Source: Ignavibacteriales bacterium
Lineage (GTDB): Bacteria; Bacteroidota; Ignavibacteria; UBA10030
Assembly: GCA_026390585.1 (NCBI GenBank)
Contig: JAPLFP010000170.1
Span: 1-49,331, forward strand
Direction of reading: 5' to 3'
DNA length: 49,331 bases
Shown: positions 4,086-31,423 of the stretch, one piece after another
How positions within the stretch are numbered: position 1 is the stretch's first letter
Layout: each line of letters begins with the position of its first letter
Translations under genes and position numbers: made by a program
Notes under the pieces: model-generated
What the model saw: only the letters and a program-made list of their open reading frames with translations
What the model was told of the DNA's origin: nothing
Databases searched by the model: none

Positions 4086-4559
4086 TCACGCAAAGACGCC
4101 AAGCCGCAAAGGATGGAATGAGATTGGGTCAATCCTCGGGAAGGCCATTGACAACGCGAGAAATTCCGCGTTTGATCAGTGCATCTCCAAAATTAATCAG
4201 AAGACCTAGGCGTTTGTCGGCCAAACGCAGGTAAGTCAACAACTGCTTCTTGTGAACCGGAGCAACTTCTTCCACTGATTTCAACTCGACTATCACTTTC
4301 TCTTCAACGATCAGATCCGTCCGAAATCCCTCATCCAACATCACCGATTCATAAACCACAGGAAGCACTTGTTGACGGGAAACCATCAGACCTCGTTTCT
4401 TCAACTCATACTCTAAGGTAGCTTCATAGACCGATTCGAGTAGACCCGGGCCAAGAGTTATGTGAACCTTATATGCGGCGTCTACGATGATTGTGGCAAT
4501 CTCGTTCTCAGATATACATATTCTTTAATCTCTCTTTGCGCCTCTGCGTCTTTGCGTGA
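4086..4559. mobile_element. 474-bp inverted-repeat-bounded unit carrying a GxxExxY gene (copy 1)
   Basis: 12-bp perfect ends TCACGCAAAGAC / GTCTTTGCGTGA; same length and internal layout as copy 2 at 30950..31423. Confidence 0.65.
4129..4515 (-). pseudogene. GxxExxY protein copy 1, full-length reading frame but ATA instead of ATG at the expected start; the ORF track shows only the C-terminal 91 aa (4129..4404)
   Basis: Manual translation 4404->4515 gives ISENEIATIIVDAAYKVHITLGPGLLESVYEATLEYELKKRGL, aligned to MSENEIATVIVDAAYKVHVALGPGLLESVYQATLEYELKKRGL of copy 2; TAA lies in frame upstream. Confidence 0.6.
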
Positions 4560-4566
4560 GATTGTC

Positions 4567-6054
4567 TTATCTTTTCGTTAAGCGAATTCCAAACACCACA
4601 ATTCCAATCACCAACCCGACGATCAGAATCACGATAGCCGCCGTCCCAAAAATGCTCGCCTTTGCCGTGACCTGGATCGTGACGGTCTTCGGCTCCGCTT
4701 CGAGCGGCTGATTGTCCGAACGGCCGGAGATCCGAACTCGGATGTCATACTTCCCCACCCCAACATCCGGAGCCGGCTTGAACGTGAAGCTGATCCGGCG
4801 TTCCGCTGACGGGTCGAGTCGATCGATCGTATTCGGATCGATCACCTTTGTCCAGTTCAACGGAAGATCTGCGTCGATGCGGACGTTGTCGAGCCAGCGC
4901 GAGCCTTCGTTCACAATATCCAGCGTCATCGAAACTGTCTGATCCGGATTGATTTCATAATAGAGCTGCTGCGCCCTGATTTGGAATTGTCCAATGCCTC
5001 GTGGAACGAGCTCCAGCTGCGCATATCCGATACTCATACTGCGCACCTGATCTTCTGTCATCGTTTTGGAGCGATCAATCACTATTCCACTCCGCTGAGG
5101 AATAGCAAAGACATAGAACTTGATCGGCTGGTCGATCTTGAGTTCGTCGTTCGCACGGGCTGGTAAGAGGACGTTAAGGGACACATCCTTGGTATTGACA
5201 CCCTGTGTGTACTTTACCTGAGTCAGACGCGCCTGGGTCTGGGGATCCTGGAAATAGACATTCAGCTGTAGAGGGAGATTAGCAACTTCCAGCCGGAAGG
5301 TGTTCTCGGCGCTGGAGAAAAGCTCCATCCTCATTCTGTAGGTGGCTGTCGACGCGAGCGGAGCTTCCTGGCTGAATTGTTCTGTAACAATCGCTACGCG
5401 GTTGGAGGCGGCATCTTTCTGAAAATAGATTTTCTTCGAGTCCTGGTTTTGCGAGTAGATCAGTCGCACCGTTGCGACATCAACATCCTGCAGCAACGTA
5501 AACTCGATCGTTGGATTCTCACCAACCTTGAGAGCTTCGATCTTGATTTCATATGGTTGACTGATGATCGCACCCGCGTCGTTGAGCAGGGCGACGTAGA
5601 CGTCCGTAATCACGTCCGGCTGGACCAGCGAATACAGACCCTCTTCGATGTTCAGGATGCGTTTGATTTCGTTCGTGCCGCTGGTCATATTCGCCAGCGT
5701 CAGTTTCACATGCCGCTGTCCATTGGGAAGCTGTGACTTCACCGCCTTCTGGATGGCGATATAGCGGCGTTCATAGATAACAGCAAGAAACGATTGCTGA
5801 TAGTTTACCTCTGAATCGCGAAACTGGCTCTCGACCCGTTCAAGATCAGCTTTTGAAACAAGGCCTCTGTCGAACAACGATTTCTGCCGCTCGAACTCGG
5901 CTTTTGTGATGTTGTAGGCGTCAAGCGCCCTCTTCAAGCCAAGAAGTTTGTACTGGTCATCGCGCGGGTTATAGTATGTCCCCTGCTGGGAGAACAAAGC
6001 AACAGGTGCAGCCAACAGGAGGATGATCGAGAGAAACAGAATAGCGCACTTCAT
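4567..6054 (-). CDS. NEW3-domain (alpha-galactosidase NEW3-like) membrane-anchored protein, probable partner of the ABC-2 exporter
   Basis: Start MKCAILFLSIILLL chosen inside the 522-aa ORF (signal peptide); C-terminal RRISFTFKPAPDVGVGKYDIRVRI... followed by one TM helix. Confidence 0.75.
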   Translation of the reverse strand: MKCAILFLSIILLLAAPVALFSQQGTYYNPRDDQYKLLGLKRALDAYNITKAEFERQKSLFDRGLVSKADLERVESQFRDSEVNYQQSFLAVIYERRYIAIQKAVKSQLPNGQRHVKLTLANMTSGTNEIKRILNIEEGLYSLVQPDVITDVYVALLNDAGAIISQPYEIKIEALKVGENPTIEFTLLQDVDVATVRLIYSQNQDSKKIYFQKDAASNRVAIVTEQFSQEAPLASTATYRMRMELFSSAENTFRLEVANLPLQLNVYFQDPQTQARLTQVKYTQGVNTKDVSLNVLLPARANDELKIDQPIKFYVFAIPQRSGIVIDRSKTMTEDQVRSMSIGYAQLELVPRGIGQFQIRAQQLYYEINPDQTVSMTLDIVNEGSRWLDNVRIDADLPLNWTKVIDPNTIDRLDPSAERRISFTFKPAPDVGVGKYDIRVRISGRSDNQPLEAEPKTVTIQVTAKASIFGTAAIVILIVGLVIGIVVFGIRLTKR

Positions 6055-6312
6055 AGGATTTGCCACAGAGCTGGTCGTTGGGATGATGAGGAAGAGAACA
6101 TTCTCTTTGACGCAAAAAGGCAGAGATTGTTCCACTCAGAGAGCGTCGTCGAGAAGAATGCTTCTCAGGAGCAGAAGGTTCTCTGGCAGCGCAACTCAAG
6201 ATAGAAAGAATAAAAATGATTTCCCAGTTACCCTCCGAGGAGAAATGGCGATACTAATTCTATCAGCACGAGTGCCTTTTTGCCCATAGGCCTGGACAAT
6301 TTCGTCACAGAC

Positions 6313-6348
6313 GAAGAAGCCCCAGTCAATTCCAACTGGGGCTTCTTC
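6313..6348. terminator. Bidirectional terminator-like hairpin GAAGAAGCCCCAGT-caattcca-ACTGGGGCTTCTTC
   Basis: 14-bp perfect stem; near-identical hairpins at 7011..7044 and 8783..8808. Confidence 0.65.
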
Positions 6349-6500
6349 TATCACAACCTGTTCAGAACGACTTCAAATGTCCCGTTCACATCTACAAAAC
6401 CTCTCCTCGTCTAGAGAATTGCATCTAGGCTCATTCCGTCAGCTTGAGTTGCTGGTCAGGCGGTTTGCCGACAGAGCTCCAAATATGACAAGGCAACAAC

Positions 6501-6695
6501 TTAAGGTCTACCAGTTAAGAGACCGCCTATGAAAAAGCCGAATCCCAAAACTGAATCACAATGTGGACATGAGTACATAATTTCTTTTTTTACAATACCA
6601 GATACATCTTTGTGTACTTCTTCGGTCAACTCAGCTGATTCTCTTTTGGTTTTTTCCAAAGAAAGAGCTTGTTTGCAATACGGGCATTTTGCCAT
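6501..6695 (-). CDS. Small zinc-ribbon-like protein
   Basis: 64 aa with CPYC and CPHC motifs; RBS-like aaggagg upstream. Confidence 0.6.
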   Translation of the reverse strand: MAKCPYCKQALSLEKTKRESAELTEEVHKDVSGIVKKEIMYSCPHCDSVLGFGFFIGGLLTGRP

Positions 6696-6756
6696 TTGTT
6701 CCTCCTTATATGTACCTATCTAATATGTGTACTGCCAGATTGAACAATTTCAAATC

Positions 6757-7157
6757 GCCTAACCACAATTAGATTGACCCGCATAAGATGCAGAGTCTTA
6801 TGAACTCAAAAACCTCTTTCATCGCATCTGCTCTGCCAAAATGTCAAGCACGGCGGACGCAAAAATCGCGGAATCCGGAGGTTTCTCCTTCACGCCCAAC
6901 AAGGTTTTCTAGATCCGTAGGCACAAGTTTTCTGACATCAAGTTACGTGGTAGCCGTCCCATTGTCAAATAAGGGCAACACGACGAGGAAAATGCGATAA
7001 GGTCACAACAAAAAAGCCCCAGTCAATTCCAACTGGGACTTTTTCATCACAACCTGTTCACAACGAATTCAAGTGTCCCGTTCACATTTACAGAACCTCT
7101 GCTCGTGTAGAGTATTGCATCTAAGCTCATTCCGTCAGCTTGAGCGGCGCATTAGGC
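6757..7157 (-). repeat. Intergenic repeat block U2 (attC-like ends, two hairpins)
   Basis: Minus-strand GTTAGGC at 6757-6763 near the next gene start and GCCTAAT at 7151-7157 near the previous stop; shares long segments with 6313-6461, 8524-8860 and 9688-9770. Confidence 0.6.
7011..7044. terminator. Terminator-like hairpin, second copy
   Basis: aaaaagccccagt-caattcca-actgggactttttc, one mismatch. Confidence 0.6.
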
Positions 7158-7201
7158 GGCAACATTCGCTTTGTCCATATCTTCGGCTGAAAGGATAATC
7201 A

Positions 7202-7780
7202 CTATTTTTTGGGGCGTGATTCAGGAGGTATCATCCCATTGACACGATAATACACCACCAGTTGTCCGTAATGTTCGCCTGTATGCTCAAGCATGAGATA
7301 CCAAAGGAACGAGCCGTGGACCATCCAATTGCCCCAGGGATATTTATATTCCTTGGTTAATCCCGAATCCCCTTGCTCCTTGATCAGCTTCACACCGTCG
7401 TCGGCTGTTTGTATCAGAAATTTGACAATATCTTCTTTCGTTGTGTACTTCTTCTGCAAGGAGTCTTCGCTCCCAAAGGGCCACATCGGTGTTCCTGTGA
7501 TGGCACTCATCATGTTATACTCAGCTGATGCAATGTGTATGAGGTTTTGTCCGAAGGTCCGTTCATCTTTTTGAGCTTTGAAGTCGTATTTGTCTTGAGG
7601 AAAATCCCTGGCCATCGCAATAACTTTTCCGAAGACATAGTACCATTCGGACAACAGCTCCTGAGAGGGACTTTGTGCAGCCTTGGGAGGTTCGAGCGGT
7701 TTCTTCTCCTGTGCGGAAGCGAATGTGATGAGCAACGCCGCGAGTCCCATAATAACAAGTGTAGAAACGCATCTTTGCAT
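7202..7780 (-). CDS. DinB-family protein with N-terminal signal peptide
   Basis: MQRCVSTLVIMGLAALLITFASAQ start; HIASAEYNM and LEHTGEHYGQLVVYYRVNGMIPPESR DinB-like helices and His residues. Confidence 0.8.
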   Translation of the reverse strand: MQRCVSTLVIMGLAALLITFASAQEKKPLEPPKAAQSPSQELLSEWYYVFGKVIAMARDFPQDKYDFKAQKDERTFGQNLIHIASAEYNMMSAITGTPMWPFGSEDSLQKKYTTKEDIVKFLIQTADDGVKLIKEQGDSGLTKEYKYPWGNWMVHGSFLWYLMLEHTGEHYGQLVVYYRVNGMIPPESRPKK

Positions 7781-7980
7781 GGGTACTCCTTTGAAGAGTG
7801 GGATGATTGTTTGCTGTCGCCTGACATTGATTCGATTGATCCGCCTATTATGCGGAACACCGGATCGCGATCCGTACAACTCGCCGTTGCCGTACTCGAT
7901 CTAAATGCAATTGTCTCTTCCGTTGTTGTTGGTCACAGGCGACACGATTTCTTGGCACGGTAGGCGGGACATTTCTGATG

Positions 7981-8469
7981 TCAAGTTACTATATGTTTCC
8001 AATATGTGCACTTTCCGTCCCTCTCTGATCTTCCTGTCATTTTGTTAATAACAATTTCTACCGCATTACAGTTCTCAACTTCTTCAATAGTGACCTCTCT
8101 TGCCTTTGGCTGCAAACAACGGTTAAATATATTTAGTACTTGACATCTTTCTTTGATATTTTCGATTATCCGTGCTTTTCCATAGCAAATAGCACTATCA
8201 CTATTAATGTGGCATTCTGCTCCTTGAGGGTGTGAAACCATTTCTCCACAATGTCGACTTACTGTAAAACAAACGTTAGGATTTTTCCTAATAATATCAA
8301 GTTTCGACCCTTCTACTGCGCAATGGAATATTAGCTTTCCTTCCGAATATCCGTACGTTAATGGAATAACATACGGTCTATTATCAAGTACCAATCCCAA
8401 ATAGCCTACACGTTCTTCTACAAGAAGCTTTTCCATTTCTTCTCGTGATTCGATGAAGTTCTTTGGCAA
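7981..8469 (-). CDS. Pyridoxamine 5'-phosphate oxidase family (NimA-like flavin-binding split barrel) protein
   Basis: RVGYLGLVLDNRPYVIPLTYGYSEGKLIFHCAVEGSKLDIIRKNPNVCFTV. Confidence 0.8.
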   Translation of the reverse strand: MPKNFIESREEMEKLLVEERVGYLGLVLDNRPYVIPLTYGYSEGKLIFHCAVEGSKLDIIRKNPNVCFTVSRHCGEMVSHPQGAECHINSDSAICYGKARIIENIKERCQVLNIFNRCLQPKAREVTIEEVENCNAVEIVINKMTGRSERDGKCTYWKHIVT

Positions 8470-8523
8470 GGGACCTCCTACTTGTTTTTTTCATCTGGAA
8501 ATAATTTTCCGCTTTTGATATGC

Positions 8524-8860
8524 GCCCAACAATAATTAGATTGCTCCGTGTAAGATACGGAACCATACAAACACAAAAACCTCTTTCATCCGCAAACGGA
8601 ATCCAGAGGTTTCTCCATCACGCCCAACAAGATCTTCCAGATCCGTAGGCACAAATATTCTGAACTCAAGTTACCGAGTCACCAGCCCATTGTCAAATGA
8701 GGGCAACACAACGGAGAACGTGAGGAGTGACGACAGCAGAAGTGAACTTGTGACAAATCTGTCAGAAGTCGGAGAACAAAAGAGCCCCAGTCAACTCCAA
8801 CTGGGGCTTCTTCATCACAACCTGTTTAGAACGGACTCAACGAGACTTTTCAACTTTGTC
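8524..8860 (-). repeat. Intergenic repeat block U4
   Basis: GCCCAAC core then ...TTAGATTG...TAAGAT, hairpin AAACCTCT...AGAGGTTT, and GCCCCAGT...ACTGGGGC hairpin at 8783-8808; parallels block at 6757-7157. Confidence 0.6.
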
Positions 8861-8898
8861 CATTTGACTTTGACGACATACAGTTCTCGATCAACAAC

Positions 8899-9645
8899 TC
8901 AAAGCTTCACAGCAACAAAAAGGGCGGTGAATGCATGAAAACTTGCATGGGCTATGAAGGCCGATTCTAATCCGTGTTTCCAGAACAACCAACCCCATGG
9001 CAGAGAGACAATGAAAATTGTAAATACACACCAAACTGGATTCGTTGTGCCAAATCTTATTAAAGTAGGTGTATGACCGATGGCAAAAAGTATTTGACTC
9101 AGAAGAACAACTGACCAAATCAATGATTCTTTTGGAATTCCTATACCATGTTGAAAAATGCGCCACAAAATCCATGTTATGATAGTCATAATCCCCCAAC
9201 GCATGATCACTTCCTCGGTTAGGCTACCAAATAGGCGGGTTAGAAATGGGTACATATTGAGATAAGCGACAAAATCAGGCGCAATAAAATATGCAACAAT
9301 GGACCCTGCCAGACCTATTGGGGCTCCATAAAATAACTGGCGTTTGAGTACTATCCAGAAAACCTTTTTCTTAATAGGAACGTCAGCAAGGTAGGCTCGA
9401 AAACCAATTCTGGGTGTAAGGAGTGCTCCTACAGCCGCAAAGATGGTGATGAAAATGACAGATTGAAAAACACTTAACACAACGAGTGTATTCATCGAGA
9501 ATGGTAAACGGACATGTTCGGGAATGAGTTTTGGTATAGCCGGTACGTAAGAGACAGAACCTATGAATCCAGCAAGCCACACATATATAAAGCTGCGGAG
9601 CCGACTATGTGTAAAACTATTGTTGCTTCCAGAGTTCTCGGGCAT
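8899..9645 (-). CDS. CPBP family intramembrane glutamic endopeptidase-like protein
   Basis: 248 aa, polytopic, LTEEVIMRWG (EExxxR) and FAIGHTPT motifs. Confidence 0.75.
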   Translation of the reverse strand: MPENSGSNNSFTHSRLRSFIYVWLAGFIGSVSYVPAIPKLIPEHVRLPFSMNTLVVLSVFQSVIFITIFAAVGALLTPRIGFRAYLADVPIKKKVFWIVLKRQLFYGAPIGLAGSIVAYFIAPDFVAYLNMYPFLTRLFGSLTEEVIMRWGIMTIITWILWRIFQHGIGIPKESLIWSVVLLSQILFAIGHTPTLIRFGTTNPVWCVFTIFIVSLPWGWLFWKHGLESAFIAHASFHAFTALFVAVKL

Positions 9646-9687
9646 TGTAGGATTCAGTTAATATGATGATTTCATAAATCTACTATG

Positions 9688-9860
9688 GCCTAACCACAAT
9701 TAGATTGACCTGCATAAGATGCGGAGTCCAGCTGGGGCTTTTCAATCGCAACCTGCTCAGGACGATTTCGATTGCCCTCTTCGAAATTGTGCATTGGACT
9801 TTATCGACATGCCGAAGCGACTGTTTACGGTCCGTCTACGTTCTGCCTCTTGAATGTCGG
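9688..9860 (-). repeat. Intergenic repeat block U5 (internally deleted copy)
   Basis: GCCTAACCACAATTAGATTGACCTGCATAAGATGCGGAGTC, differing from 6757.. at 2 of 41 positions, then jumps to the CTGGGGCTT segment. Confidence 0.6.
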
Positions 9861-10166
9861 CTTTGCATTTTGTTCGTAGAGAAGTCGTCTATAGCGCATG
9901 ACGTGGCTGGTAGTGCACCTCTTCACAGTCAATATCGAAAACGTCCGATCAATGCCCGGCGGTCAATCTGAAAAAGCCTAGTTGTTTTTTCTGCCTTATA
10001 GCTTTATCTTGACATCCCGTCCATATATTCGATCAGAAGAAACCTAGGTGATCTGAATCGGTTTTATCGCGGGACCCCCTCTTCGAGGGGTAGGCGTGCA
10101 GAGATTGACGACTCTTGCTCTTCCATCTGAATCGGCAATCGCGAATCGTCGATCGAAAATTCATTT

Positions 10167-10240
10167 GCACCCATAGCTCAATTGGATAGAGCATCAGACT
10201 TCGGATCTGAGGGTTGGGGGTTCGACTCCCTCTGGGTGCA
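10167..10240 (+). tRNA. tRNA-Arg (anticodon TCG)
   Basis: Cloverleaf gcaccca...agctcaattggatagagc...tcaga-cttcgga-tctga...gggggttcgactccc tctgggtgca; loop CTTCGGA gives anticodon TCG. Confidence 0.92.
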
Positions 10241-10395
10241 CAACGCAATTTCCGATTTTCGATCTCTGATTTATGATTTTGGGTTTATGTCTCGCCCGAG
10301 CCTCTTTTCAATCACAAATCAAAAATCGCAAATCGACAATCACTCGGCTATACCGCTGATCACGCACCTCGTCAGCATCCCTCAGCAAAATGGCC

Positions 10396-10413
10396 CGACT
10401 CCCTCTGGGTGCA
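10396..10413 (+). repeat. 18-bp exact repeat of the tRNA-Arg 3' end
   Basis: cgactccctctgggtgca identical to 10223..10240. Confidence 0.8.
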
Positions 10414-10593
10414 CCAAATCATTTTCGATTTCCGATCTATGATTTTCGATTTGCGTTAGGCGGTTTTTCAATGATTCCCGCCATAGAACGGCGGGACGCA
10501 AAAAGCGCGCAATCGAAAACCTGTGGTGAGCGCCTGCCTGATGGACCGAGAACAGCCGGCAGGCGTCGAACCATCAGAAATCGAAAATCCCCC

Positions 10594-11442
10594 TCAGTTT
10601 CCCGCAATAATCCTGTACAGCTCCTTCTGAATTCTTCTCGTCATCTCTCCCGGCATGCCGTTTCCGATCGCCAACTCATTGATCTTGACGACAGGGGTGA
10701 CCTCCGTTGTTGTCCCGACGATCATGCATTCGTCGAACCCGCTCAGCTCCGATTCATTGATGGAAGCCTCCAGAGATGAAATGTTGAGGTTCCGGCAGAT
10801 GTGAAGGACAACCTGCCTGGTAATACCAGACAAGATGAAGTTGGATTTTCGCGGTGTCAGGAGCATACCATTCTTCACAGCGCAGAAATTGGTGTGCGTT
10901 CCTTCCGTGATGAAGCCGTCGCGCGACCAGATCGTCTCACAGGCGGCTTGTTCCACTGCGCTCTGCCGTGAGAGGATGTTTGGCAACAAGGCGATGGTTT
11001 TGATGTCACAGCGCGACCAACGAATATCCTTTTCGAGAAGCACCCGCACGCCTTTTTCAATTTCCTCAGCATGCGGCTTGAAGGGACTCGTTGAAATCAG
11101 AAGGGTTGGCGGAGTGGAAGGTGGAGGGAAGAAATGTTGGCGGGGAAAGTACGCTCCACGGGTTGCCTGAATATATGCTATCGCTTGCGCACCCTTGTGA
11201 CCATTTCTTGTCGCAAGCTCCTCGATGATCGGTCGTATTCTTCCAATGTCAATTCCCTTGATACGCAATTGCTCCAGGCCATATCGCATCCGCTCAAGAT
11301 GAGCCTCAACCTGAAAGAACCCCCGTGGAGGGTAGAACCGCACGACCTCGTAGATTCCGTCGGAGAAGAGAAATCCCCGATCAAACGGTGAAATGGTCGC
11401 TTTGTCGTGTTCGACATACTTATCATTGAGATAAAGCCACAT
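10594..11442 (-). CDS. Class IV aminotransferase (D-amino acid / branched-chain aminotransferase-like)
   Basis: MWLYLNDKYVEHDKATISPFDRGFLFSDGIYEVVRFY...ITRQVVLHICRNL. Confidence 0.88.
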   Translation of the reverse strand: MWLYLNDKYVEHDKATISPFDRGFLFSDGIYEVVRFYPPRGFFQVEAHLERMRYGLEQLRIKGIDIGRIRPIIEELATRNGHKGAQAIAYIQATRGAYFPRQHFFPPPSTPPTLLISTSPFKPHAEEIEKGVRVLLEKDIRWSRCDIKTIALLPNILSRQSAVEQAACETIWSRDGFITEGTHTNFCAVKNGMLLTPRKSNFILSGITRQVVLHICRNLNISSLEASINESELSGFDECMIVGTTTEVTPVVKINELAIGNGMPGEMTRRIQKELYRIIAGN

Positions 11443-11457
11443 ACTCTCAGCTCTCAA

Positions 11458-13581: not shown

Positions 13582-13822
13582 GGTGCGTGTCTGGCGTCAA
13601 GGTCTGATGTTGATTGGGTGCCACATCACTGCTTCTCAAAGATTAGCAAATGCTTCCATAAAGCACAACCCCACGTGAGAACCCATTTTTTCGCAACATT
13701 CTGACACTATGGAAGTGGTGATTTTTGGCCATTCCGTTTTGTGCTTGCGTCAATGGCGTTGCTTCCAGGAATTATTTTGTGCAAATTGCCTGATAACTTA
13801 AGCTTGCACTCAGGTATTCCAC

Positions 13823-14425
13823 ATGCTCGCCGGACCGAAAAAAGTACTCCATACGATTTATAAACCCGTCAGGGACTTCTTCATCAAGCACCCTGCCCTT
13901 CTGTCGGGGTATATCATCTATGGGTATTTCTTCATCACGACGATGGATTTCTACAGGGACTTCAAGAAGACACACAGTGTCGGTTTCCTGAGCACGCTGG
14001 AGAGATTCGACGCGCTGATCTGGATGTGGCTGCTCGCCGTAGTGCTGGTCAAGGTCATCGAGTACCGGAACAGACTGAACACGCAGGAACGATTGCGTCT
14101 CGAACATGAGAAAGAGCTTGAAGTCAAAGGTGCGCAACTTTCCACAACACACCAGATGATCCGAACGCTGCAGCATCAGATCAACAACCCTCTCACGATT
14201 ATTCTCCTCTACGTACAACGGGCACTTCGCAAAGCAGAGAACAACCAGCAGGATCTCGAGAACCTCATCATGGTGAAGAACGGCGCCGAACGGATTGCCG
14301 CCACGCTCCGTGAGTTTGCCCACGCACAAGGTATCGAAACGGTTGACTCTCCCGTCGGCGATCTTGTCACACCCTCCAAGAAGGATGACTCTAAACGAAC
14401 AGTGGATGAAGCACGCCCTGCTTGA
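13823..14425 (+). CDS. Membrane protein with a histidine-kinase DHp (HisKA-like) domain, apparently lacking a catalytic ATPase domain
   Basis: TM helices then QMIRTLQHQINNPLTIILLYVQRAL (H-box-like); ends about 60 aa later without N/G boxes. Confidence 0.65.
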   Translation: MLAGPKKVLHTIYKPVRDFFIKHPALLSGYIIYGYFFITTMDFYRDFKKTHSVGFLSTLERFDALIWMWLLAVVLVKVIEYRNRLNTQERLRLEHEKELEVKGAQLSTTHQMIRTLQHQINNPLTIILLYVQRALRKAENNQQDLENLIMVKNGAERIAATLREFAHAQGIETVDSPVGDLVTPSKKDDSKRTVDEARPA

Positions 14426-14861: not shown

Positions 14862-14862
14862 A

Positions 14863-15930: not shown

Positions 15931-15974
15931 ATTCTCTGAAGGGATTCGGGACTCTTGTGTCAGAAGAAGAATCG

Positions 15975-17021: not shown

Positions 17022-17110
17022 TGTTCACCCCTTCTTCAATGATAGTCAACAATAATATACCAAAGAAAGCCGCGACATTCAACGCCCTTGAGTAAGGTGC
17101 AGTGAGAAAC

Positions 17111-17168
17111 TTGCCACAAAGACACGAGGACTCGAAGTTCATATTGTGTCTTGGTGCCCTTGTGGCAA
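17111..17168. repeat. 58-bp palindromic element TTGCCACAA...TTGTGGCAA
   Basis: 9-bp perfect ends with partly complementary interior (gacac...gtgtc). Confidence 0.6.
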
Positions 17169-17171
17169 ATG

Positions 17172-17783: not shown

Positions 17784-17870
17784 GTCACGTTTCCTATGAA
17801 TAGATCACTCCAAGCTTGTTAAGAAGCGTGCCTCTGGCGCCATCTGATGAATCAGACGGCTGGATTTGGA

Positions 17871-17920: not shown

Positions 17921-18002
17921 GCAAGATATTCTTCGCGTTCTCTGCGACAAAACTCAAACCGCAAAGGCCTCAGAGAAGCGCAAATCGTTTGCGAGACAGC
18001 TT

Positions 18003-21518: not shown

Positions 21519-21538
21519 CTACGCGTTACCTGTTTTGG

Positions 21539-21985
21539 CTATTGGATGGTTGCTGCATCGAGACTTCTTGTTTTTCTGCTTCGAAGATCGAAGAGATAAC
21601 CTGACTTCTGTCCGGCCGACGCTTCATCGCTCTTCTCATTCCCTGGCACTGTGTTTACAAAAACAGTGAAGTTGTCTCTCCAACCGACGGAGCCATTGGG
21701 AATCTCATCTTCAAATATGACGCTATCGATTGAAAGATCAAACACAAAAAAGGATACTTGTTGCTGCGGATCCTTCGCAGTTGGCTTTGACTTCTTCAGA
21801 CACACGACAGCGGTCTGTGCGTCGTTGAACAGGAACTCCACCGCCTGGCCATACTCCTGAGCAGCCAACGCCCGGTAGCGTGTGCCTCCGGAATCTGATC
21901 CCTTGAATTCGTTGCGGCTTGAACCGCAGGAAACAAGAAGCAGGAGCAGAAGGCTGGGGAAGATATGAAGCACGATCTTCATCAT
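21539..21985 (-). CDS. Small lipoprotein of unknown function
   Basis: Start MMKIVLHIFPSLLLLLLVSCGS (lipobox), overlaps the upstream stop. Confidence 0.55.
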   Translation of the reverse strand: MMKIVLHIFPSLLLLLLVSCGSSRNEFKGSDSGGTRYRALAAQEYGQAVEFLFNDAQTAVVCLKKSKPTAKDPQQQVSFFVFDLSIDSVIFEDEIPNGSVGWRDNFTVFVNTVPGNEKSDEASAGQKSGYLFDLRSRKTRSLDAATIQ

Positions 21986-24900
21986 TTCGCGAACACCATC
22001 TTCTTTGTCTCCATAAAATCTCGTGCTGAGCTTGCCTGCGGTGAGCTTGTCGAACCCGTCGAAGCATCGCCGGCTTGCCCGCCAGAAGCACGGCGGGCGA
22101 GGAGCCGGTAAAAGTACACACCGCTCGGGAGTTTCGATGCATCCCATGTAACCCTGTAGGTCCCCGCCTGCCGTTCCTCGTTCACGAGCGCCGCAACCTC
22201 TCTTCCGAGAACATCAAAGATCTTCAAAGAAACAAATCCGGCAGCGGCAATCCGAAATTCGAAATTGGTTGTCGGATTGAACGGGTTGGGATAGTTCTGT
22301 TCGAGTGAGAATTGTGTCGGGATGTTCGCCACGACGTCATCGACATCCGTCTTCTTCACGATGCCGACAACACCAAGCCGATCAATCACACCGCGCAGCT
22401 CTCCCGTGTTCTGAACATACGTTGTTGGGATGGAGAGCCATTTGCCATCCTGCAACATCGCAAGGGTGAGGCTGTTCTCGTCTGTCAGACCGGAGACGCT
22501 CACGGTGCTGGCCCGATTCAGCGTGATGCCAGCGGGGCCAAGAGAGAATGCCTTCAGCAGTTTGGACGATGCAGTAGAGCCAGGCTGCAAATCGTTGAGG
22601 CCATCACACAGGGTGACATATATTGGTTTTTTCACCGATCCCGCATCGAACGTGATGCTCACAGATCCGCTCGGCGACGCAACGGTGGCAGGGGCATCGG
22701 TTTTGAGAAGTCTTGCGTTGAGAGAGATTGTGGTATCTGCGTAGAACACACCATACTTCTTTGCGGCCCGTACTCTCAGGGAGACAGCCCCACTCCCGCT
22801 CAATTTCTGCGTCGTGTCGATGAATGCTTTTGTCGTCCCGGAAATTGCATTGAACCGAAGCGTCGAGGAACCGCTCGTTTGTGACAACGTGCCGCTCACA
22901 CTACCTAATCTTAACTCAGCCGAACTGGCTGCAACGACATCGATGTACTCGCTCAACAACGGATTCTGCAGATATCCGATCGTCAGCGGCGGTGCCGCAC
23001 TCGAGTCGCTGTACTCGAACACAGCCCTGATCATCAAATTGAAACCGTCCAACTGGCCGGGAATTGGCTGCATGGCACTTACTTCACGCATCGTTTGCCA
23101 TGTATTGGGAGGCGCTCTGTTGTAGTTCGGCCCACGATACACATAGGAGTAGTCTTCGGTCACGTAGTTGTCAACTGCCAAATACGTCCCTACCGAATCT
23201 CCAAGATCTTCCATGAACCCAACATAGATCGGCCCGGAGAGGTTTGTCAGAGTTTTCTCATACGCAGAGAGGTCGATGTCAACAAATGACCCAAACGGAC
23301 TGACAGTGCGGTCGACATTGACGAGAAACGGTGTGACGATATCTGAGCCCGGTCTGCCGTTACGGTCCCCCCAGACGTGGAAGACAAAATTCATCCTGTC
23401 CGTCGGAAGCGCGGTGCCGTTGGAGAACTCTTGGTTGAATGCGAGCATCATCCGGGCTTTTCGAAGGATATTCCATTTCATTGCCGGTTGAAATCGTACC
23501 GCCATTCCGAGGGTTGTCGCATTGTTGCCGAATCCCAAATATGGAGCGTTGCCCTGAGAAAACGTATGCGGCGTTCCGCCGTCATACTTTTCCTCCACGA
23601 GAAAATGGAGAAGCTCGCCGAAGGAAGTGTAGGAATATATTGTTGGCAAGACAGGCTGAGTGTTCATGATAACGAACACGATCGAGGAATATGTCGTCCC
23701 AAGATCCGGAGAGGTGAACTCAACACCGCTCGTTACATCCCGAACTCGCACAGCAGCGGGACCCGATTCGATCGCCCGAACAACCACTCCAGCGGGAGCT
23801 GCAAAGGTAATGCGAAAATTCCGCGCACCCGAAAATGATATGTATTGAACCCCCTGCTGCTTCAGAGTGTCTGATTGTTTGGTATTCGGATCGAGATACT
23901 CCCTCCTCAGACTCGGCCGCACCGTCATCTGACCTTTGTACCGATAGGCAGGATCCTGTCCACCGGACCCCATCCAGTTGGCGGTGAAGAAATTCAACAT
24001 CGACGCTGCAAACGTCGTTGAGATTCCCGATTGAGTCAGCGATGCTTCAAATCCCTGGATGCCGGAGTACAGGTTTTGTGTCAAGTTCTTGAGAAACAGC
24101 AGGCCATACTGTTCTCCGACATATCTCGTCCAGAGAGCTGCACGACTGTAGTCCTCCAGCGTCCCATCCCACCCCGTCAACGCGACATTTGTGTTAGAAA
24201 GGTACCCCGACGGACTGCGGAGAGTGAATCCGCAGAGATATTCAGCGTACTCCGACAAGCCTTCATTGAAAAACGTAATCTCGTACGGATCGTAGTTCCA
24301 ATGGATGAGGTGCTGGAACTCATGAGCCAATGTAGAGAGCGCGCCCGACGTTCGGCGAGTGCTGTTGTAGTAGATCCCGGGATAGGAATCGATGTAGAGC
24401 ATGTCTCTCCTGTTGCTGGTGGAAGTCGCTCCGCTGCTCGGATCGACATCGACAGCATAGAAGAAGCCCGCAACGTAGCTGTTTGACCCGGTGAATCCAT
24501 CCTGTATGTCACAGACCAGGAAATGGGTCTTTCCATCCCCCTTCCCCTTCTGAAAACTCGAGTTGACATTCGGGGGATTCCCACAGACCTGGCGATCGAT
24601 CGAGAGAATTCCCATGGTTGAGTCAAGTGAGGTACGACTCGTGGAGCGCTCGAGTGCATTTGCCATGGCATCAACTTCAGCCGACGTGACATGCCCGTTG
24701 TTCCACTCCGACAGGGCGACCCAGATGTAGCTGATCGACCCGATGAACTTGAGTTCGGCACGAATTGTGTCATAACTCCGGTTCTGAATATTGTAGACCC
24801 AGAAGAGATTCTGGTCTCCGACTCTTGGATCAACCGCCCCTTTCTGCAATCTCCATTGCTGCATCGCCTCGACAAGGCCCGGATGCTGGATCCGTGTGTT

Positions 24901-25059
24901 CAGCCAGGCTTCCTGGATTGTCTTCGGGTCGTTCACTTCGAACGATCCGCATATGGCGCGACTGCCGATTTCCATCGGCGCAATATCCTGTGCTCGCAGT
25001 GTACCTGAGCACACCGGCAAGAGCAAGACGGCCCACCGTATGATGTTCCTCGTAGTCAT
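21982..25059 (-). CDS. Secreted putative zinc metalloprotease with type IX secretion C-terminal sorting domain
   Basis: TLAHEFQHLIHWNYDPYEITFFNEGLSEYAEY (HExxH plus downstream E) and LEQNYPNPFNPTTNFEFRI...GVYFYRLLA...KKMVFAK. Confidence 0.8.
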   Translation of the reverse strand: MTTRNIIRWAVLLLPVCSGTLRAQDIAPMEIGSRAICGSFEVNDPKTIQEAWLNTRIQHPGLVEAMQQWRLQKGAVDPRVGDQNLFWVYNIQNRSYDTIRAELKFIGSISYIWVALSEWNNGHVTSAEVDAMANALERSTSRTSLDSTMGILSIDRQVCGNPPNVNSSFQKGKGDGKTHFLVCDIQDGFTGSNSYVAGFFYAVDVDPSSGATSTSNRRDMLYIDSYPGIYYNSTRRTSGALSTLAHEFQHLIHWNYDPYEITFFNEGLSEYAEYLCGFTLRSPSGYLSNTNVALTGWDGTLEDYSRAALWTRYVGEQYGLLFLKNLTQNLYSGIQGFEASLTQSGISTTFAASMLNFFTANWMGSGGQDPAYRYKGQMTVRPSLRREYLDPNTKQSDTLKQQGVQYISFSGARNFRITFAAPAGVVVRAIESGPAAVRVRDVTSGVEFTSPDLGTTYSSIVFVIMNTQPVLPTIYSYTSFGELLHFLVEEKYDGGTPHTFSQGNAPYLGFGNNATTLGMAVRFQPAMKWNILRKARMMLAFNQEFSNGTALPTDRMNFVFHVWGDRNGRPGSDIVTPFLVNVDRTVSPFGSFVDIDLSAYEKTLTNLSGPIYVGFMEDLGDSVGTYLAVDNYVTEDYSYVYRGPNYNRAPPNTWQTMREVSAMQPIPGQLDGFNLMIRAVFEYSDSSAAPPLTIGYLQNPLLSEYIDVVAASSAELRLGSVSGTLSQTSGSSTLRFNAISGTTKAFIDTTQKLSGSGAVSLRVRAAKKYGVFYADTTISLNARLLKTDAPATVASPSGSVSITFDAGSVKKPIYVTLCDGLNDLQPGSTASSKLLKAFSLGPAGITLNRASTVSVSGLTDENSLTLAMLQDGKWLSIPTTYVQNTGELRGVIDRLGVVGIVKKTDVDDVVANIPTQFSLEQNYPNPFNPTTNFEFRIAAAGFVSLKIFDVLGREVAALVNEERQAGTYRVTWDASKLPSGVYFYRLLARRASGGQAGDASTGSTSSPQASSARDFMETKKMVFAK

Positions 25060-25103
25060 CTCAAAAATGCTTGTTCTTTCCTGCAATGACTTCTGGCAAA
25101 AGT

Positions 25104-25238
25104 GTCATTGCGAGCGCTGTCTGCGAAGCAATCTGTACATGTATAGATTGTCCCGCTTCTGGATTCCGCCTGTAGGCAGGATTCATAGAGCGGAACTTCG
25201 TCGTCCCGAAGAGAAGAAGCGGGACTCCTCGCAATGAC
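25104..25238. repeat. 135-bp nested inverted-repeat (MITE-like) element
   Basis: Outer GTCATTGCGAG / CTCGCAATGAC (11 bp perfect), inner TCCCGCTTCT / AGAAGCGGGA (10 bp perfect). Confidence 0.75.
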
Positions 25239-25261
25239 CCTGAGGGTTTTTGAGATAGGTT

Positions 25262-25552
25262 CTATTCTTTGACAAGTTCGAACTGCTCAAGAATGATGTG
25301 TGTTGAATCCAAAGCTACGTTCGGCGGACGGAAATGAATTCGGCATTTCTGTCCCTGCATCTTCCACAGTTTGCGATACAATTCTGTCGTGTCTTTCTGA
25401 ATGACGCGAACCCTACGGTCATCCGTTTGAATCGAAAGGTCCGTGAACGGTTCGTTCCCGATGACGTACACCGTTCCGATGAGAACGGGAGTTGCTTCAT
25501 CCAGTTCCTTCTGGCTTCCGCATGCCCACAAGATCACCGCCAACAGCACCAC
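25262..25552 (-). CDS. Small lipoprotein of unknown function
   Basis: MVLLAVILWACGSQKELDE (lipobox LWAC). Confidence 0.5.
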   Translation of the reverse strand: MVLLAVILWACGSQKELDEATPVLIGTVYVIGNEPFTDLSIQTDDRRVRVIQKDTTELYRKLWKMQGQKCRIHFRPPNVALDSTHIILEQFELVKE

Positions 25553-25604
25553 AGGTGCGATGCTGATCTTGAAGTTGGGATCGGGCGGGCGTAAGGACCG
25601 GAAC

Positions 25605-27104
25605 TTATGTTCGAGTGAACATTCGAGCGAGCGCGTCTTTCGTCTCCTTGATGTCGGCGCTGTCGAACACTCTCAGAACGAACACGAGGACGATGAAGAG
25701 AGCTGTGAACGCCAGTTTCGTGGAAATACCGCTCAACGTTGCCGGGTCGGGGTGGATGACCAGGAACAGGCCGACGACAGCTCCTGTGGCAAGGCACAAT
25801 CGGAGAATCCGGCCCCACTCATACTCTACATGATAGAACTTCTGAGACGGGAAATAGATTCCGGCAGCCATGACGATGTAGCTGATGAGCGTTGCGATGG
25901 CGGCGCCCATAATTCCAAGCGGCGGAATGAGCAAGTAGTTTGCGATGATATTTGCAGCGGCTCCTGCCCCTGTCGCATATGGCAGGTATTTCGTCTTCTT
26001 CTCCAGGTAGACACCGACGACGAAATTCACATATGCACCTGTGAAAACGTACGCCAGGAGAATGATAGGAACGATCTTCAAGCCCCCCCAGTAGGCGGGG
26101 CCGATAAAATATCCGCCGAACAATCGAATCCGGACGATATCATCGATAAACATCGTCCCGGTAACAAAAACGAGCATCAGAAGCGAGACGAAGTACGTAA
26201 AGACTTTGGAGAACAGCCTCGGGGCATCACTGTCCTTCGCGTGCGTGAGAAAGAAGGGACGCCATGCGTAGTCGAACATGCCTACGACAAGCATCATCAA
26301 GACTCCGAGGCGATAGTTGGCTGTATAGATCCCAACCGTATCGTTGTTCGTCAACGCTTTGAGGATCGGCCGATCGATGACCTGAATTGCAATTCCCGCC
26401 AGGCTGGCAGGGATATAGGGGAGCCCGAAACGGAGCATTTCCTTGTAGAGCTTCCCCGGAATGCGAAACGTCAGCTGAGGGGAAACAATCCAGAAAAGGA
26501 CAAGTGCGGTAAAAGCAGACGCGATGAGATTCGCGATGAACACTACATCGACCCTCATCTGAAAGAAGACGAACATGATGACCGTCAGCACGACGGTGAT
26601 AACGATATTGAGAACACGCAGGCCGGCGAACAGTTTTGCCTTGTTCTCCATCCGCAGATACGCGAATGGAACGATAGCGAGCGTGTCGAAGAACAAAATC
26701 CATGCGGAATAGCGTATGAAGAGTATCAATCCTGCATGCCCCACCAGGTCCGCACGTTCCGGCCCGGCATCGAGGAGATCTCCGATCGAAGCTGCAGAGA
26801 AATAGATCAGCAGCGAAAACAGAAATGACGTGACAAGAAGGGAAAAGAACGGCGCGCTGACCGTCTGCTTTTTGTCGCCCGATTCCAGCGACGCGACAAA
26901 GCGCATATACGCTGAATCCATGCCGTACCCATAGATCACGAACGCAAAGGCTATGTAGGAGTACAAATAGCCGACGGTACCGAGTTCTGCCTTGAAAAGG
27001 AAGTTCGTATAGAAGGGGACAAGCAGGAAATTGAGGAACCGGCCGACAATGGAGCTCAGGCCGTAGATGGCTGATTCTTTTCCCAGCTTGAAGATGCGAT
27101 CGAG
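25605..27104 (-). CDS. Polysaccharide biosynthesis / oligosaccharide flippase (Wzx/MOP superfamily)
   Basis: Start MLDRIFKLGKESAIYGLSSIVGRFLNFLLVPFYTNFL; about 12-14 TM segments. Confidence 0.85.
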   Translation of the reverse strand, partial: LDRIFKLGKESAIYGLSSIVGRFLNFLLVPFYTNFLFKAELGTVGYLYSYIAFAFVIYGYGMDSAYMRFVASLESGDKKQTVSAPFFSLLVTSFLFSLLIYFSAASIGDLLDAGPERADLVGHAGLILFIRYSAWILFFDTLAIVPFAYLRMENKAKLFAGLRVLNIVITVVLTVIMFVFFQMRVDVVFIANLIASAFTALVLFWIVSPQLTFRIPGKLYKEMLRFGLPYIPASLAGIAIQVIDRPILKALTNNDTVGIYTANYRLGVLMMLVVGMFDYAWRPFFLTHAKDSDAPRLFSKVFTYFVSLLMLVFVTGTMFIDDIVRIRLFGGYFIGPAYWGGLKIVPIILLAYVFTGAYVNFVVGVYLEKKTKYLPYATGAGAAANIIANYLLIPPLGIMGAAIATLISYIVMAAGIYFPSQKFYHVEYEWGRILRLCLATGAVVGLFLVIHPDPATLSGISTKLAFTALFIVLVFVLRVFDSADIKETKDALARMFTRT

Positions 27105-27152
27105 CATAGATGAGGTATGCGCTAAGAAGAGACCAGAACTCTCAAAAAGCAC

Positions 27153-27288
27153 TCACGCAGGGACGAAACGAGTTTTCCTCTGTGTAACTCTGTGCTCCTT
27201 TGTGTACCTCTGTGTCACCGACCAAAGCGTTACACAGAGAGACAGGGAGAAAATCCAGAGAGACACCGAGAACAACGCCATTGCGTGA
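27153..27288. repeat. Palindromic element with TCACGCA...TGCGTGA ends and internal TCTGTGTAAC / GTTACACAGA
   Basis: Outer ends match those of the GxxExxY units; inner 10-bp perfect inverted repeat at 27179-27188 / 27229-27238. Confidence 0.6.
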
Positions 27289-27323
27289 CATTTTTTCTTT
27301 GAACTGTTGGTTTGAGATGGCTT

Positions 27324-27488
27324 CTAGCTCTTCCCGCCCTCGTTGACCAGCATGATGGGGATGTCGTCTTTCACCGGATACACCTGTCCGCACGACTTGC
27401 ATGTGAGCGTCTGCTGATCCGCTTTGTAGTCGAGGTCCCCCTTACATTTTGGACAGCACAGAATTGCGAGGAGTTCAGGTTTAAGCAT
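27324..27488 (-). CDS. Trm112-family small protein (54 aa), absent from the ORF track
   Basis: Manual translation [62 protein letters not shown] motifs and YPVxDDIPIML. Confidence 0.85.
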
Positions 27489-27915
27489 TATTCCCCCGAG
27501 AGTTGTTCATCGCCTCTTGCAGCACTTGAACAAACATGGCTGGTGGCCGCGTGGGCCGACCTGTGGCTTCGTTGAGAAAACTGTGAACGGTGTAACCCTC
27601 GACGATGGGCTCCGTCTCGCCTTCGTCAAAGATCCGATACTGAAAACGAATGCGCGCCACAGGCGTCTCGGAAACCGACGCTTCGATGGTGAGCAGATCG
27701 TCGTAGCGTGCAGATTTCCTGTATTTCGCGAATGCCTCAACGACCGCGACGAGGATTCCTTGTTTCTCGATTTCCGAATACGGCAGGCCGAGGGATCTCA
27801 ACAACTCCGACCGGCCTACTTCAAAGTACTCAAAGTACTTTCCGTTGTTCACTACCTTCATCGCGTCGGTATCTGCATACCGGACACGGATGGTCGTTGA
27901 ATTCTTCAGTGCCAA
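27481..27915 (-). CDS. Hotdog-fold acyl-CoA thioesterase (YbgC/4-hydroxybenzoyl-CoA type)
   Basis: [37 protein letters not shown]; start set to TTG at 27915 (ORF open to 27963), uncertain. Confidence 0.8.
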
Positions 27916-27922
27916 CTCGTCC

Positions 27923-28873
27923 CTATTCCTTCCATGCTCCCATCTTCGAGAACTTCTCCACACGCTTTTCGACGAGTTTGTCGGGTTTCATCTTGGCGAG
28001 CGCCTTGAGTTCTTCCAGCAGGATCTTTTTGAGTATTGATGCAGACAGTTCATGGTTTCTATGCGCACCCCCCCGAGGCTCAGGTACGATGCGGTCGATG
28101 ATCCCCTGTTCCAGGAGGTCCGCCGCCGTCAGCTTCAATGCTTCGGCAGCCTGTTCTTTGTAATCCCAACTTCTCCAGAGGATGCTCGAGCATGATTCCG
28201 GCGCAATCACCGAGTACCACGCATTCTCGAACATCAGGATGCGATCGCCAACGCCAATACCGAGTGCACCCCCTGAAGCACCTTCCCCGATGATCGCAAC
28301 GATGATCGGGACAGGCAGGTGAGACATTTCAAAGAGATTCCGGGCGATGGCTTCAGCTTGTCCCCGCTCCTCAGCCCCGATGCCGGGGTAGGCTCCCGGC
28401 GTGTCGAGCAGCGTGATGATCGGCCTTTTGAATTTGACCGCCATCTTCATCAACCTGAGTGCCTTGCGATATCCTTCCGGATTCATCATACCGAAATTGC
28501 GGTAGACGTTGGATTTCGTGTCTCTTCCTTTCTGTTGCCCCAGAATCAAAACAATCTGCTCGCCGAGACGCGCGAACCCAGCGACGAGGGCCCTATCATC
28601 GGCAAACAACCTGTCGCCATGCAACTCAACGAAATCCTCCGTCATGAGATTGATGTAGTCCAACGTGTACGGCCGATCCGGATGCCGGGCGAGCTGGACA
28701 CGCTGCCAGCGAGTCAGGTTGGAGAAAATCGATTCTCTGAGCTGATCCACCTTCTTTTCGAGTGTCGAGATCTCGTCTGCAATATCGAGGTTGTCTGCGT
28801 ACTTCCTCATCTCCTCGATCTTCTGTTCGAGCTCAAGAATCGGTTTCTCAAACTCCAGTACCATTTTTGCCAT
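27923..28873 (-). CDS. accA: Acetyl-CoA carboxylase carboxyltransferase subunit alpha
   Basis: [68 protein letters not shown]. Confidence 0.96.
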
Positions 28874-28911
28874 CGAAAGGCTCCTTCTGCCGCGTGATGC
28901 GGCATGAATCC

Positions 28912-30939
28912 TTATACTTCACGCCGTTGCCGCAGCATGGTCGTCAGCAAGATCTCAACATCCAACGCAATGGATTGGTTCTTTGCGTAGTAAAGGTTGT
29001 ATTGTTCTTTCTCCTGATCCTCCAGCACGCGATTTTTCTGGAGCTGTATCAAACCCGTGAGGCCGGGTTTACCAAGGAAGAGCACACTTTGCTGGTTCAA
29101 GCCAGGTTTCGCGGTGCTATTGTCGGGAGGTCCGACGAGGCTGAATGTCCCGCCAAAAACCTTCGGAACACGCAGGATAAACTCCGAGCGGGTTTTTCCC
29201 GTCGAGGCCTTTTTCAAATATAGGAAAGGATAGATCGAAATCAAAAGAACAACCGACAGACAAATGTCAAAGAGCCGCTTCAGAGTGCGATTTGTGGATT
29301 TCTCAATGTTGTACGTGATTTGAACGAGAGGCAGCTCATCCAGTGAATCGACGCTTCCCTTGCCTATGATCACTTCAAGCGTGTTCGGCACCAGATGGAA
29401 GTTGACAGATTGTGCATGCGTTCGCCCGATCACCGAGAGGATGTCGGCATACAAAAGAGTTTGCGTCGAAAAAATGACATCGCTGACCTTCATATCTTGA
29501 ATGACCTTGCCGATGTTCTCAGTACTGCCGACAATCGGGAGTCCCGCCAGGTCTTCTCCGATTCTCCTACGATTGACATCGACAAATCCCAACACGTCAT
29601 ATCCGTCGCTCACCCGGCTTCGCAGCCGTCGCAACAATTCCTGCGCTGATTTGTCCGTTCCGACGATGAGCGTACGGCGGCCGAGAATACTCCTTCGACC
29701 TTCCGACGAACTTCTCCCCAACACGCGCAAAAGCAGGCGCCATCCAGGGAGGAAGACTGCGCTCAGCATCCCGGAGATGATGGTCACTCCCCTGCTGAAC
29801 CCGTAGTCCTTGAAGAAGAAGACCAGCGCTGAAATGACGATGAAGCCCACAACCGTGGAGACCATCGTGCGAGAAATCGACATGCGGCGATGGGTATAGA
29901 CGCCGGCTGAATAGAGTCCCCCCGCAACAATGATAGATGGGACGGTATAGACGATCGGATACGCGTAGCTCGGGACCCGAAACATGGTACCGAACCATGT
30001 CAACTCTGCCAGAAGAATTGAAAGGTCCACAAGGGCGATGTCAACGACGGCCACGGTGAGCGGTCGGAGAAAGGCCTTGATCATGGCCAGCCGCGAGGAG
30101 ATGGAAATTGCCGCACGAATCAGAAACGCGAAGAGTTTCGAACTGCTGAAATGTTTCTGCACGAAGAGCTGCATCGCCTGGTAGAAGGTACGGATTTCGT
30201 CCAGATTGCTCCGCTTCGTGCTCTCCCCCTTGTAATGGATGATCTGGGTCGAGTGAACGTAGTAGTTCTTCCATCCGGCCTGCTGAATCCTGTAGCACCA
30301 GTCGAGGTCTTCCCCGTACATGAAGAACTCCTCATCGAGTCCTCCGACCTGCTCGAATGCCTCACGGCAGACCATCATGAACGAGCCGCTGACCGCATCA
30401 ATCTCGTACGTTTCGTCAGGGCTGAGGTAGGTCAGGTTGTAACGGCCAAGCAAACGTGAATTCGGGAAGAGAGCGCTAAGTCCGATCATCTTTGAAAATG
30501 CAACCCATGGACGCGGGAAGCTCCGCCGACAAGCGAGCTGAAACGTGCCGTCCGGATTCAGCACTTTGCAGCCGGCCAGGCCGACATCAGGATTTTCCTG
30601 GAAGAATTTGATCATCACACGAAGCGTATCTTCCTGCACAAGAGTATCGGGATTGATGAGAAGCAGGAATTTCCCCTGCGCTCGTTTGAGGCCGAGGTTG
30701 TTCCCCTTCGCAAATCCAAGATTGACTTTGCTTGTGATCAAGTGAACGAGAGGAAAGCGTCGACGCACCATTTCGACGCTGCCATCGTCCGACGCATTGT
30801 CGACGACGATAATCTCTCCACGAATCCCCTTCATTGCCTTTTGCAGAGACACAAGGGCGTGATGAAGAAAGTCACGCACATTGTAGTTGACGATGATGAT
30901 GGAAATGAGGGGCGGTATGTGTTTTCGTTTTGCCGGCAT
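28912..30939 (-). CDS. Fusion: N-terminal GT2 glycosyltransferase + TM region + nucleotide-binding-like domain + degenerate C-terminal sugar phosphotransferase-like domain
   Basis: [27 protein letters not shown]...[18 protein letters not shown] at N-term; [19 protein letters not shown]...GFVDV and [14 protein letters not shown]...FSLVGPP...[12 protein letters not shown] at C-term. Confidence 0.8.
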
Positions 30940-30949
30940 GAAAAAAATG

Positions 30950-31423
30950 TCACGCAGAGACGCAAAGCCGCAAAGGACAGAATGAGAGTGGCTTAGTCTT
31001 CGGGAAGACTGTTGACAACTCGAGTTATCCCCCGCTTGATTAGCACGTCCCCGAAGTTGATTAACAAGCCCAAACGTTTATCGGCAAGGCGCAAGTACGT
31101 TAGCAACTGCTTTTTGTGAACCGGGGCAACTTCCTCGACTGATTTCAACTCAACGATAACTTTGTCTTCAACGATCAAATCCGGCCGAAATCCGAGATCT
31201 AGCTTGACAGTTTCATATACCACAGGAAGTGCCTGTTGCAGGGAGACCTTTAAACCCCGTTTCTTCAACTCATACTCCAATGTGGCCTGATAGACAGATT
31301 CAAGTAACCCCGGACCAAGCGCGACGTGAACTTTATATGCAGCATCGACTATTACCGTCGCAATCTCATTTTCTGACATACATATTCTCTAATCTCTCTT
31401 CGCGCCTTTGCGCCTTTGCGTGA
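30950..31423. mobile_element. 474-bp inverted-repeat-bounded unit carrying a GxxExxY gene (copy 2)
   Basis: Ends TCACGCAGAGACGC / GCGCCTTTGCGTGA; same length and gene position as copy 1. Confidence 0.65.
30993..31379 (-). CDS. GxxExxY protein (PD-(D/E)XK nuclease-like), copy 2
   Basis: 128 aa with GPGLLESVY and RPDLIVEDKVIVELKS. Confidence 0.9.
   Translation of the reverse strand: MSENEIATVIVDAAYKVHVALGPGLLESVYQATLEYELKKRGLKVSLQQALPVVYETVKLDLGFRPDLIVEDKVIVELKSVEEVAPVHKKQLLTYLRLADKRLGLLINFGDVLIKRGITRVVNSLPED

Follow-up and report, generated by a model that had tools for sequence, protein, structure and literature searches.

Results and discussion

Two cassettes of 474 bp, each made of a single GxxExxY gene region between inverted arrays of a short repeat unit, were characterised in a 49,331-nucleotide stretch of an Ignavibacteriales genome (contig JAPLFP010000170.1, assembly GCA_026390585.1; hereafter the window). 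The GxxExxY family is widespread and often present in several copies per genome. Comparison of occupied sites across genomes lends good support to the view that the cassette, gene and matching ends together, is mobile as one unit. The explanation that we favour, and hold to be probable, is that it constitutes a homing-like single-gene element, the encoded nuclease of which would recognise its own repeats.

The two cassettes of the window

The two units, at 4086-4559 (copy 1) and 30950-31423 (copy 2), are of exactly equal length, as a preliminary description of this DNA had reported, and align in ungapped register at 78.3% identity. Segments of 20 bp share 11-18 matches within the units and 1-8 beyond their borders. 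Similarity had been said to stop near the TCACGCA...TGCGTGA ends, and identity indeed falls to chance level immediately beyond them; likewise, both units place the stop codon 43 bp inside the left end and the start position 44 bp inside the right one. The perfect terminal match of copy 1, first given as 12 bp, was corrected to 14 bp (TCACGCAAAGACGC at both ends). In both units the ends consist of tandem RCGCAAAG-type units closed by TCACGCA/TGCGTGA. A gene had been assigned to each unit: both coding regions match the family, but only copy 2 holds an intact open reading frame (ORF). The start position of copy 1 (4513-4515) reads ATA where the relative in the sister genome G001 has ATG, so that copy 1 may be translated poorly or not at all.

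The encoded protein

Kinship of the gene with PD-(D/E)XK nucleases, proposed at the outset, was borne out by full-length matches to PF13366 (PDDEXK_3) and TIGR04256, with profile scores of 139-146 bits against curated cut-offs of 22 and 35. This sole ORF of the unit matches PDDEXK_3 alone, and no HUH Y1 or other transposase was found in it. Among 59 diverse family members, residues G22, E27, Y30, Y55, D67, E77, K79, Q91 and Y95 are invariant, as is the catalytic-type pattern E27-D67-E77xK79-Q91xxxY95 that they contain, and none of the cysteines is invariant as a ligand of an Fe-S cluster would be. Such an arrangement of E, D, ExK and QxxxY is typical of relatives of RecB, Cas4 and lambda exonuclease. 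An AlphaFold2 model of the copy 2 protein (predicted local distance difference test score, pLDDT, of 93.7) gave as best structural matches in the PDB LHK-Exo 3syy (E 6e-3) and Cas4 SSO0001 4ic1 (probability 1.0, template modelling score, TM, 0.59); these fold matches are weak by E-value, yet consistent with the residues. PADLOC matched Cas4 only at E 0.002-0.01, and a search of solved structures by sequence returned no match. The protein is predicted to have a small RecB/Cas4-type PD-(D/E)XK nuclease-like fold.

Because no relatives were found in the phage records and viral contigs searched, and plasmids carried them in 8 of 72,556 records, neither phages nor plasmids seem to be the principal means by which the family is carried.

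Matching repeat arrays across the family

Relatives of the copy 2 protein were gathered from GTDB genomes of Ignavibacteria, Cyanobacteria, Planctomycetes, Acidobacteria, Chloroflexi, Deltaproteobacteria and other groups, and the flanks of the 78 with enough surrounding sequence were scored for two or more repeat motifs in the 150 bp on each side. Repeats were present on both sides in 65, on one side in 11 and on neither in 2, and control windows 800 bp further out had them on both sides in 0 of 67. The examination of homologue flanks that the preliminary description had called for thus found repeats on at least one side in 76 of the 78 relatives. In 15 of the 78 the gene lies between hairpins (R-gene-F) instead of inside one. 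Within the genus of the window, paralogues differ in their ends (CGCAAAG, CACGGAT, CGCGGAT, CGCAGAG and CACAAAG types), each matched on both sides; in the broader sample the unit types (CGCAAAG, CACAGAG, CACGGAT, CGCAGAT and others) are usually the same on the two sides.

The same picture emerged from 80 further PF13366 loci drawn from across the phylum. The units mostly fit CRCRRAK, number 5.0 per locus near the gene vs 1.1 further out, and are spaced at 8-11 bp with a peak at 9-10 bp. The inverted-match score between the upstream and downstream flanks of the same locus was 19.5, against 11.3 for mismatched pairs and a maximum of 13.0 in 2000 permutations. Arrays were inverted at 49 of these loci, everted at 4 and direct at 9.

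Co-diversification of units and protein

The unit type follows the protein tree: gene and ends co-diversify. For a set of 188 GxxExxY proteins, the dominant unit was identical on both sides at 116 of 167 testable loci, while permutation gave a mean of 36 and a maximum of 52 (5000 permutations). Mapping unit type onto the protein tree requires 46 changes, and none of 200 shuffles needed fewer than 83; for the last letter of the unit (G or T) there are 6 changes, against at least 24. A residue-to-unit code (K90 with G, I122 with A, unit letter 2) was considered and rejected, as it vanishes or lacks power in phylogenetically independent pairs.

This co-diversification would make numerous naturally occurring specificity pairs available for a nuclease-type protein of very small size (about 125 aa), which makes the homing hypothesis directly testable.

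Exchange of cassettes at fixed sites

At the site of copy 1, the element is 96.8% identical to that at the orthologous site of G001, the flanking coding sequence being about 85% identical. The stretch of high identity overshoots the unit by about 9 bp on the left and about 24 bp on the right. Synonymous divergence (dS) between the two genomes is 0.09 in the element gene, compared with 0.93-1.09 in the three neighbours tested; set against a non-synonymous divergence (dN) of 0.007, the same pair exemplifies the low dN/dS, and hence the purifying selection, found for the GxxExxY gene. In G004 the site lacks the unit and has no more than a 72-bp stretch; in G002 it holds a gene-less CGCAAAG palindrome and in G005 other hairpins. 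The intergenic site of copy 2 is taken by a gene-less palindrome with TCACGCA-type ends in G001 and by a divergent GxxExxY cassette in G005.

Similar exchange was seen in Nostocales, in which 17 loci carry an element at one intergenic site between convergent genes. Loci L077 and L143 have flanks 90-91% identical and genes 71.5% identical, with different ends (CGCAAAG vs CGCAGAG) and a dS of 1.9 in the element vs 0.42 in the neighbours. For L137 and L143, the flanks are 81-84% identical and the genes 92.5%, with a dS of 0.29 in the element vs about 1.0 in the neighbours. In the approximately unbiased (AU) test, the element tree and the flank tree reject each other (p about 1e-8 and 1e-42). A second Nostocales site carries several unit alleles and lacks the gene in two genomes (L349, L353); here, the flanks of L219 and L222 are nearly identical up to the repeats, and identity between the repeats is 73-79%. 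The ~450-bp elements L217 and L218 lie in different surroundings, match from ATGAACCACGAAG to CTTCGTGGTTCAT and show weak similarity beyond. Copies also occur at unrelated sites within one genome. As had been anticipated for such borders, similarity breaks at the ends or at most a few tens of bases away.

As judged from these comparisons, cassettes entered the same site in diverged genomes and replaced divergent alleles there, against the phylogeny of the flanks and with breakpoints at or near the repeats. Such exchange of gene plus ends at fixed sites is incompatible with vertical inheritance alongside the neighbouring genes. Ordinary homologous recombination between alleles of a resident gene, with the repeats acting as autoregulatory operators or as a terminator and no homing involved, would suit the tandem, helically phased sites upstream of the gene and the one fixed site between convergent genes, where terminators are expected. 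However, operators need no downstream mirror of the kind seen in the phylum sample (inverted 49 vs everted 4), the exchange breakpoints lie at or near the repeats while the nearby flanks keep the resident sequence, and copies are found at unrelated sites within a genome; we regard this explanation as quite improbable.

In Nostoc sp. FACHB-280 (L086), the element appears to be inverted at a shared Nostocales site and has TTCGCGCAAAG ends, an arrangement that suggests independent entry or flipping. A clean empty site for L217 and L218 in Dolichospermum/Anabaena was also considered and discarded, the similarity of the flanks ending short of the site.

Gene-less palindromes and a separate MITE

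Two gene-less relatives of the cassettes, at 1635-1706 and 27153-27288, were found in the window in addition to the features first described. The former is missing from the corresponding site of both G001 and G005; the latter has a longer variant in G001, is absent in G005 and combines two unit types within one element (TCACGCA ends, CACAGAG-type interior). In the whole 4.7-Mb genome TCACGCARAGNCGC occurs 31 times and its reversed control 0 times, and in the window the end pattern occurs 10 times at 2 mismatches vs 1.7 expected; a chance origin of the repeats is therefore excluded. Most other occurrences of TCACGCARAGNCGC sit in gene-less palindromes of roughly 50-270 bp. The idea that these are gene-bearing units minus the gene was dropped, since their interiors resemble neither the gene nor one another.

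A separate miniature inverted-repeat transposable element (MITE), with ends TAGAACC..CTCAA / TTGAGATGGCTTCTA, encloses variable nested palindromes that are often CGCAAAG ones (27312-27326 and loci L035-L064). Its repeat has 67 matches at no more than 2 mismatches in this genome vs 7 for a control.

A proposed homing-like element and its rivals

The simplest engine of movement would be the unit's only protein, with a nuclease-like fold and a type that tracks the repeat type. Each cassette comprises the gene for one small predicted RecB/Cas4-type PD-(D/E)XK protein, enclosed by inverted arrays in which a short degenerate unit recurs about once per DNA turn. The GxxExxY protein would bind its own unit in phased, hairpin, cruciform or paired-site form and then cut or nick at it, upon which repair of the break would copy the cassette into the cut site. 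The outcome would be homing into palindromic or unit-bearing sites, and gene-less hairpins would represent remnants or target sites. We infer this nuclease action, comprising self-unit recognition, cutting and repair copying. Such a model would account for co-diversification, site reuse and purifying selection, and the original proposal that the nuclease gene and its palindromic ends form one dispersal or homing unit gains support from the flanking repeats, the breaks at the borders, the lack of the unit at the same locus in some relatives and the joint exchange of gene and ends. If correct, it would provide a single account of the family, of a large class of unusual repeats between the genes of environmental bacteria and of recurrence at fixed sites.

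Several observations weigh against this explanation. Links between residues and units are inseparable from shared ancestry and non-significant once phylogeny is allowed for. The suggested comparison of occupied with empty sites found the unit absent at the same locus in some relatives, but yielded no empty site resolved to the base among very close strains; within the genus, the intergenic regions compared are so strongly diverged that breakpoints could not be placed. No target-site duplication is visible in the listed flanks, for which no statistical test was made. PF13366 is present in 52 of the 53 genomes with at least three repeats and in 117 of the 292 with fewer (345 genomes of the phylum), an association that speaks for the explanation but is uncorrected for relatedness. 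Moreover, a nuclease alone would account for copying into broken sites, not for the first arrival of the palindrome at a new locus, and part of the palindrome dispersal may be carried out by the MITE, the nuclease not being required: the outer repeat of the MITE adjoins 13 of the 30 listed ends in this genome.

The last point also favours a different explanation, in which the palindromic repeats are themselves mobile or mutable (REP- or MITE-like, with a transposase located elsewhere), the GxxExxY gene having been trapped between them as a passenger. Palindromes nested within one another, and the 15 of 78 genes that lie between hairpins, agree with this idea as well. If the gene were a passenger, however, one would expect neither a matching unit of its own beside it in nearly all phyla nor a unit type that follows the protein tree; purifying selection on the gene also speaks against it, and the two gene-bearing copies of the window are without MITE ends. 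Taken together, we find the passenger explanation unlikely.

Comparison with known systems

The analogy first drawn with RAYT/REP pairs, differing in enzyme fold, holds: the repeats are dispersed with and without the gene, and the predicted fold is PD-(D/E)XK. RAYT/TnpAREP proteins with repetitive extragenic palindromic (REP) sequences and REPINs (PMC3116915, PMC8266576) likewise show short palindromic repeats on either side of a small nuclease-type gene, as well as gene-less palindromes dispersed in intergenic DNA and a repeat type that tracks protein type. RAYT is an HUH Y1 enzyme whereas GxxExxY is a predicted PD-(D/E)XK protein, and the GxxExxY ends are phased arrays of degenerate units that are exchanged, together with the gene, at fixed sites. 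Homing endonuclease genes, PD-(D/E)XK ones included, share the single nuclease-type ORF and the presence, at one site in diverged hosts, of a cassette that is recent or divergent in conflict with the flank phylogeny. They differ in that the GxxExxY cassette is intergenic instead of lying in an intron or intein, has matching inverted ends and occupies several sites per genome, with cutting only inferred. Cas4, RecB-family and lambda-exonuclease nucleases share the E-D-ExK-QxxxY residues and the fold; unlike Cas4, GxxExxY proteins lack invariant Fe-S cysteines, measure about 125 aa vs about 200 and lie between their own repeats.

S23 ORFs lie in 23S rRNA intervening sequences with terminal inverted repeats (PMC4990558). 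These sequences resemble the cassettes in size (about 430 bp), in the one small ORF inside terminal inverted repeats and in tandem heptamers near the ORF (GACAGAT in Coxiella; PMC4990558), but S23 is a four-helix bundle and the sequence sits in rRNA, from which RNase III excises it. S23 (PF05635) loci were also recorded in the genus of the window (L230-L249), with 14 matches in the window's genome. Their genes are flanked by inverted arrays of quite different units, such as TTAGTTAATTAG, GTGAATAGTGAATAG and GAGACGGTAGACGG (permutation p=2e-4), which hints at a wider class of such elements. A rival explanation of the GxxExxY cassette, which the S23 arrays would also fit, is an RNA-level element, with ends that pair in the transcript, removal by RNase III, near-neutral insertions and another role for the protein. 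The units studied here are intergenic, not in rRNA, and an RNA stem alone predicts neither co-diversification with a DNA-nuclease-like protein nor phasing at about 10 bp, and leaves movement unexplained; this seems to us very improbable.

It is possible, and we suggest it only tentatively, that GxxExxY and perhaps also S23 proteins represent an undescribed class of single-gene homing elements with helically phased degenerate termini read by the encoded protein, in which about a dozen co-evolved specificities would embody a nuclease-to-target code. No description of these repeats, or of GxxExxY as an element, was found in the open-access literature, so that a prior account may exist.

Features of the window

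Coordinates are collected in Table 1. An Rfam scan of the window returned only one tRNA, and no rRNA is present in it.

Table 1 Cassettes, palindromes and other features located in the window
Feature	Position	Strand	Remarks
Gene-less palindrome	1635..1706	.	72 bp, located between two ORFs; same ends as cassettes
Gene-bearing cassette, copy 1 (474 bp)	4086..4559	-	78% identity to copy 2, sharp borders
Left end, copy 1	4086..4111	+	Tandem units TCACGCAAAGACGCCAAGCCGCAAAG
GxxExxY coding region, copy 1	4129..4515	-	ATA at start position, stop 4129-4131; PF13366 E=6e-41, TIGR04256 E=6e-43
Right end, copy 1	4534..4559	-	Inverted units TCACGCAAAGACGCAGAGGCGCAAAG, as read on - strand
tRNA gene	10167-10240		Sole Rfam match in window
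Degenerate nested gene-less palindrome	27153..27288	.	TCACGCA ends around CACAGAG-type inverted units
Terminal repeat TTGAGATGGCTTCTA of separate MITE	27312..27326	+	MITE found around many CGCAAAG palindromes
Gene-bearing cassette, copy 2 (474 bp)	30950..31423	-	Site holds gene-less palindrome in G001, divergent GxxExxY cassette in G005
Left end, copy 2	30950..30975	+	Units TCACGCAGAGACGCAAAGCCGCAAAG
Intact GxxExxY gene, copy 2 (P0001)	30993..31379	-	128 aa, ATG start
Right end, copy 2	31398..31423	-	Inverted units TCACGCAAAGGCGCAAAGGCGCGAAG, as read on - strand

A further repeat, of about 50-70 bp and in about 40 copies, was observed outside the GxxExxY unit in a Dolichospermum genome (G353; loci L338, L340 and others).

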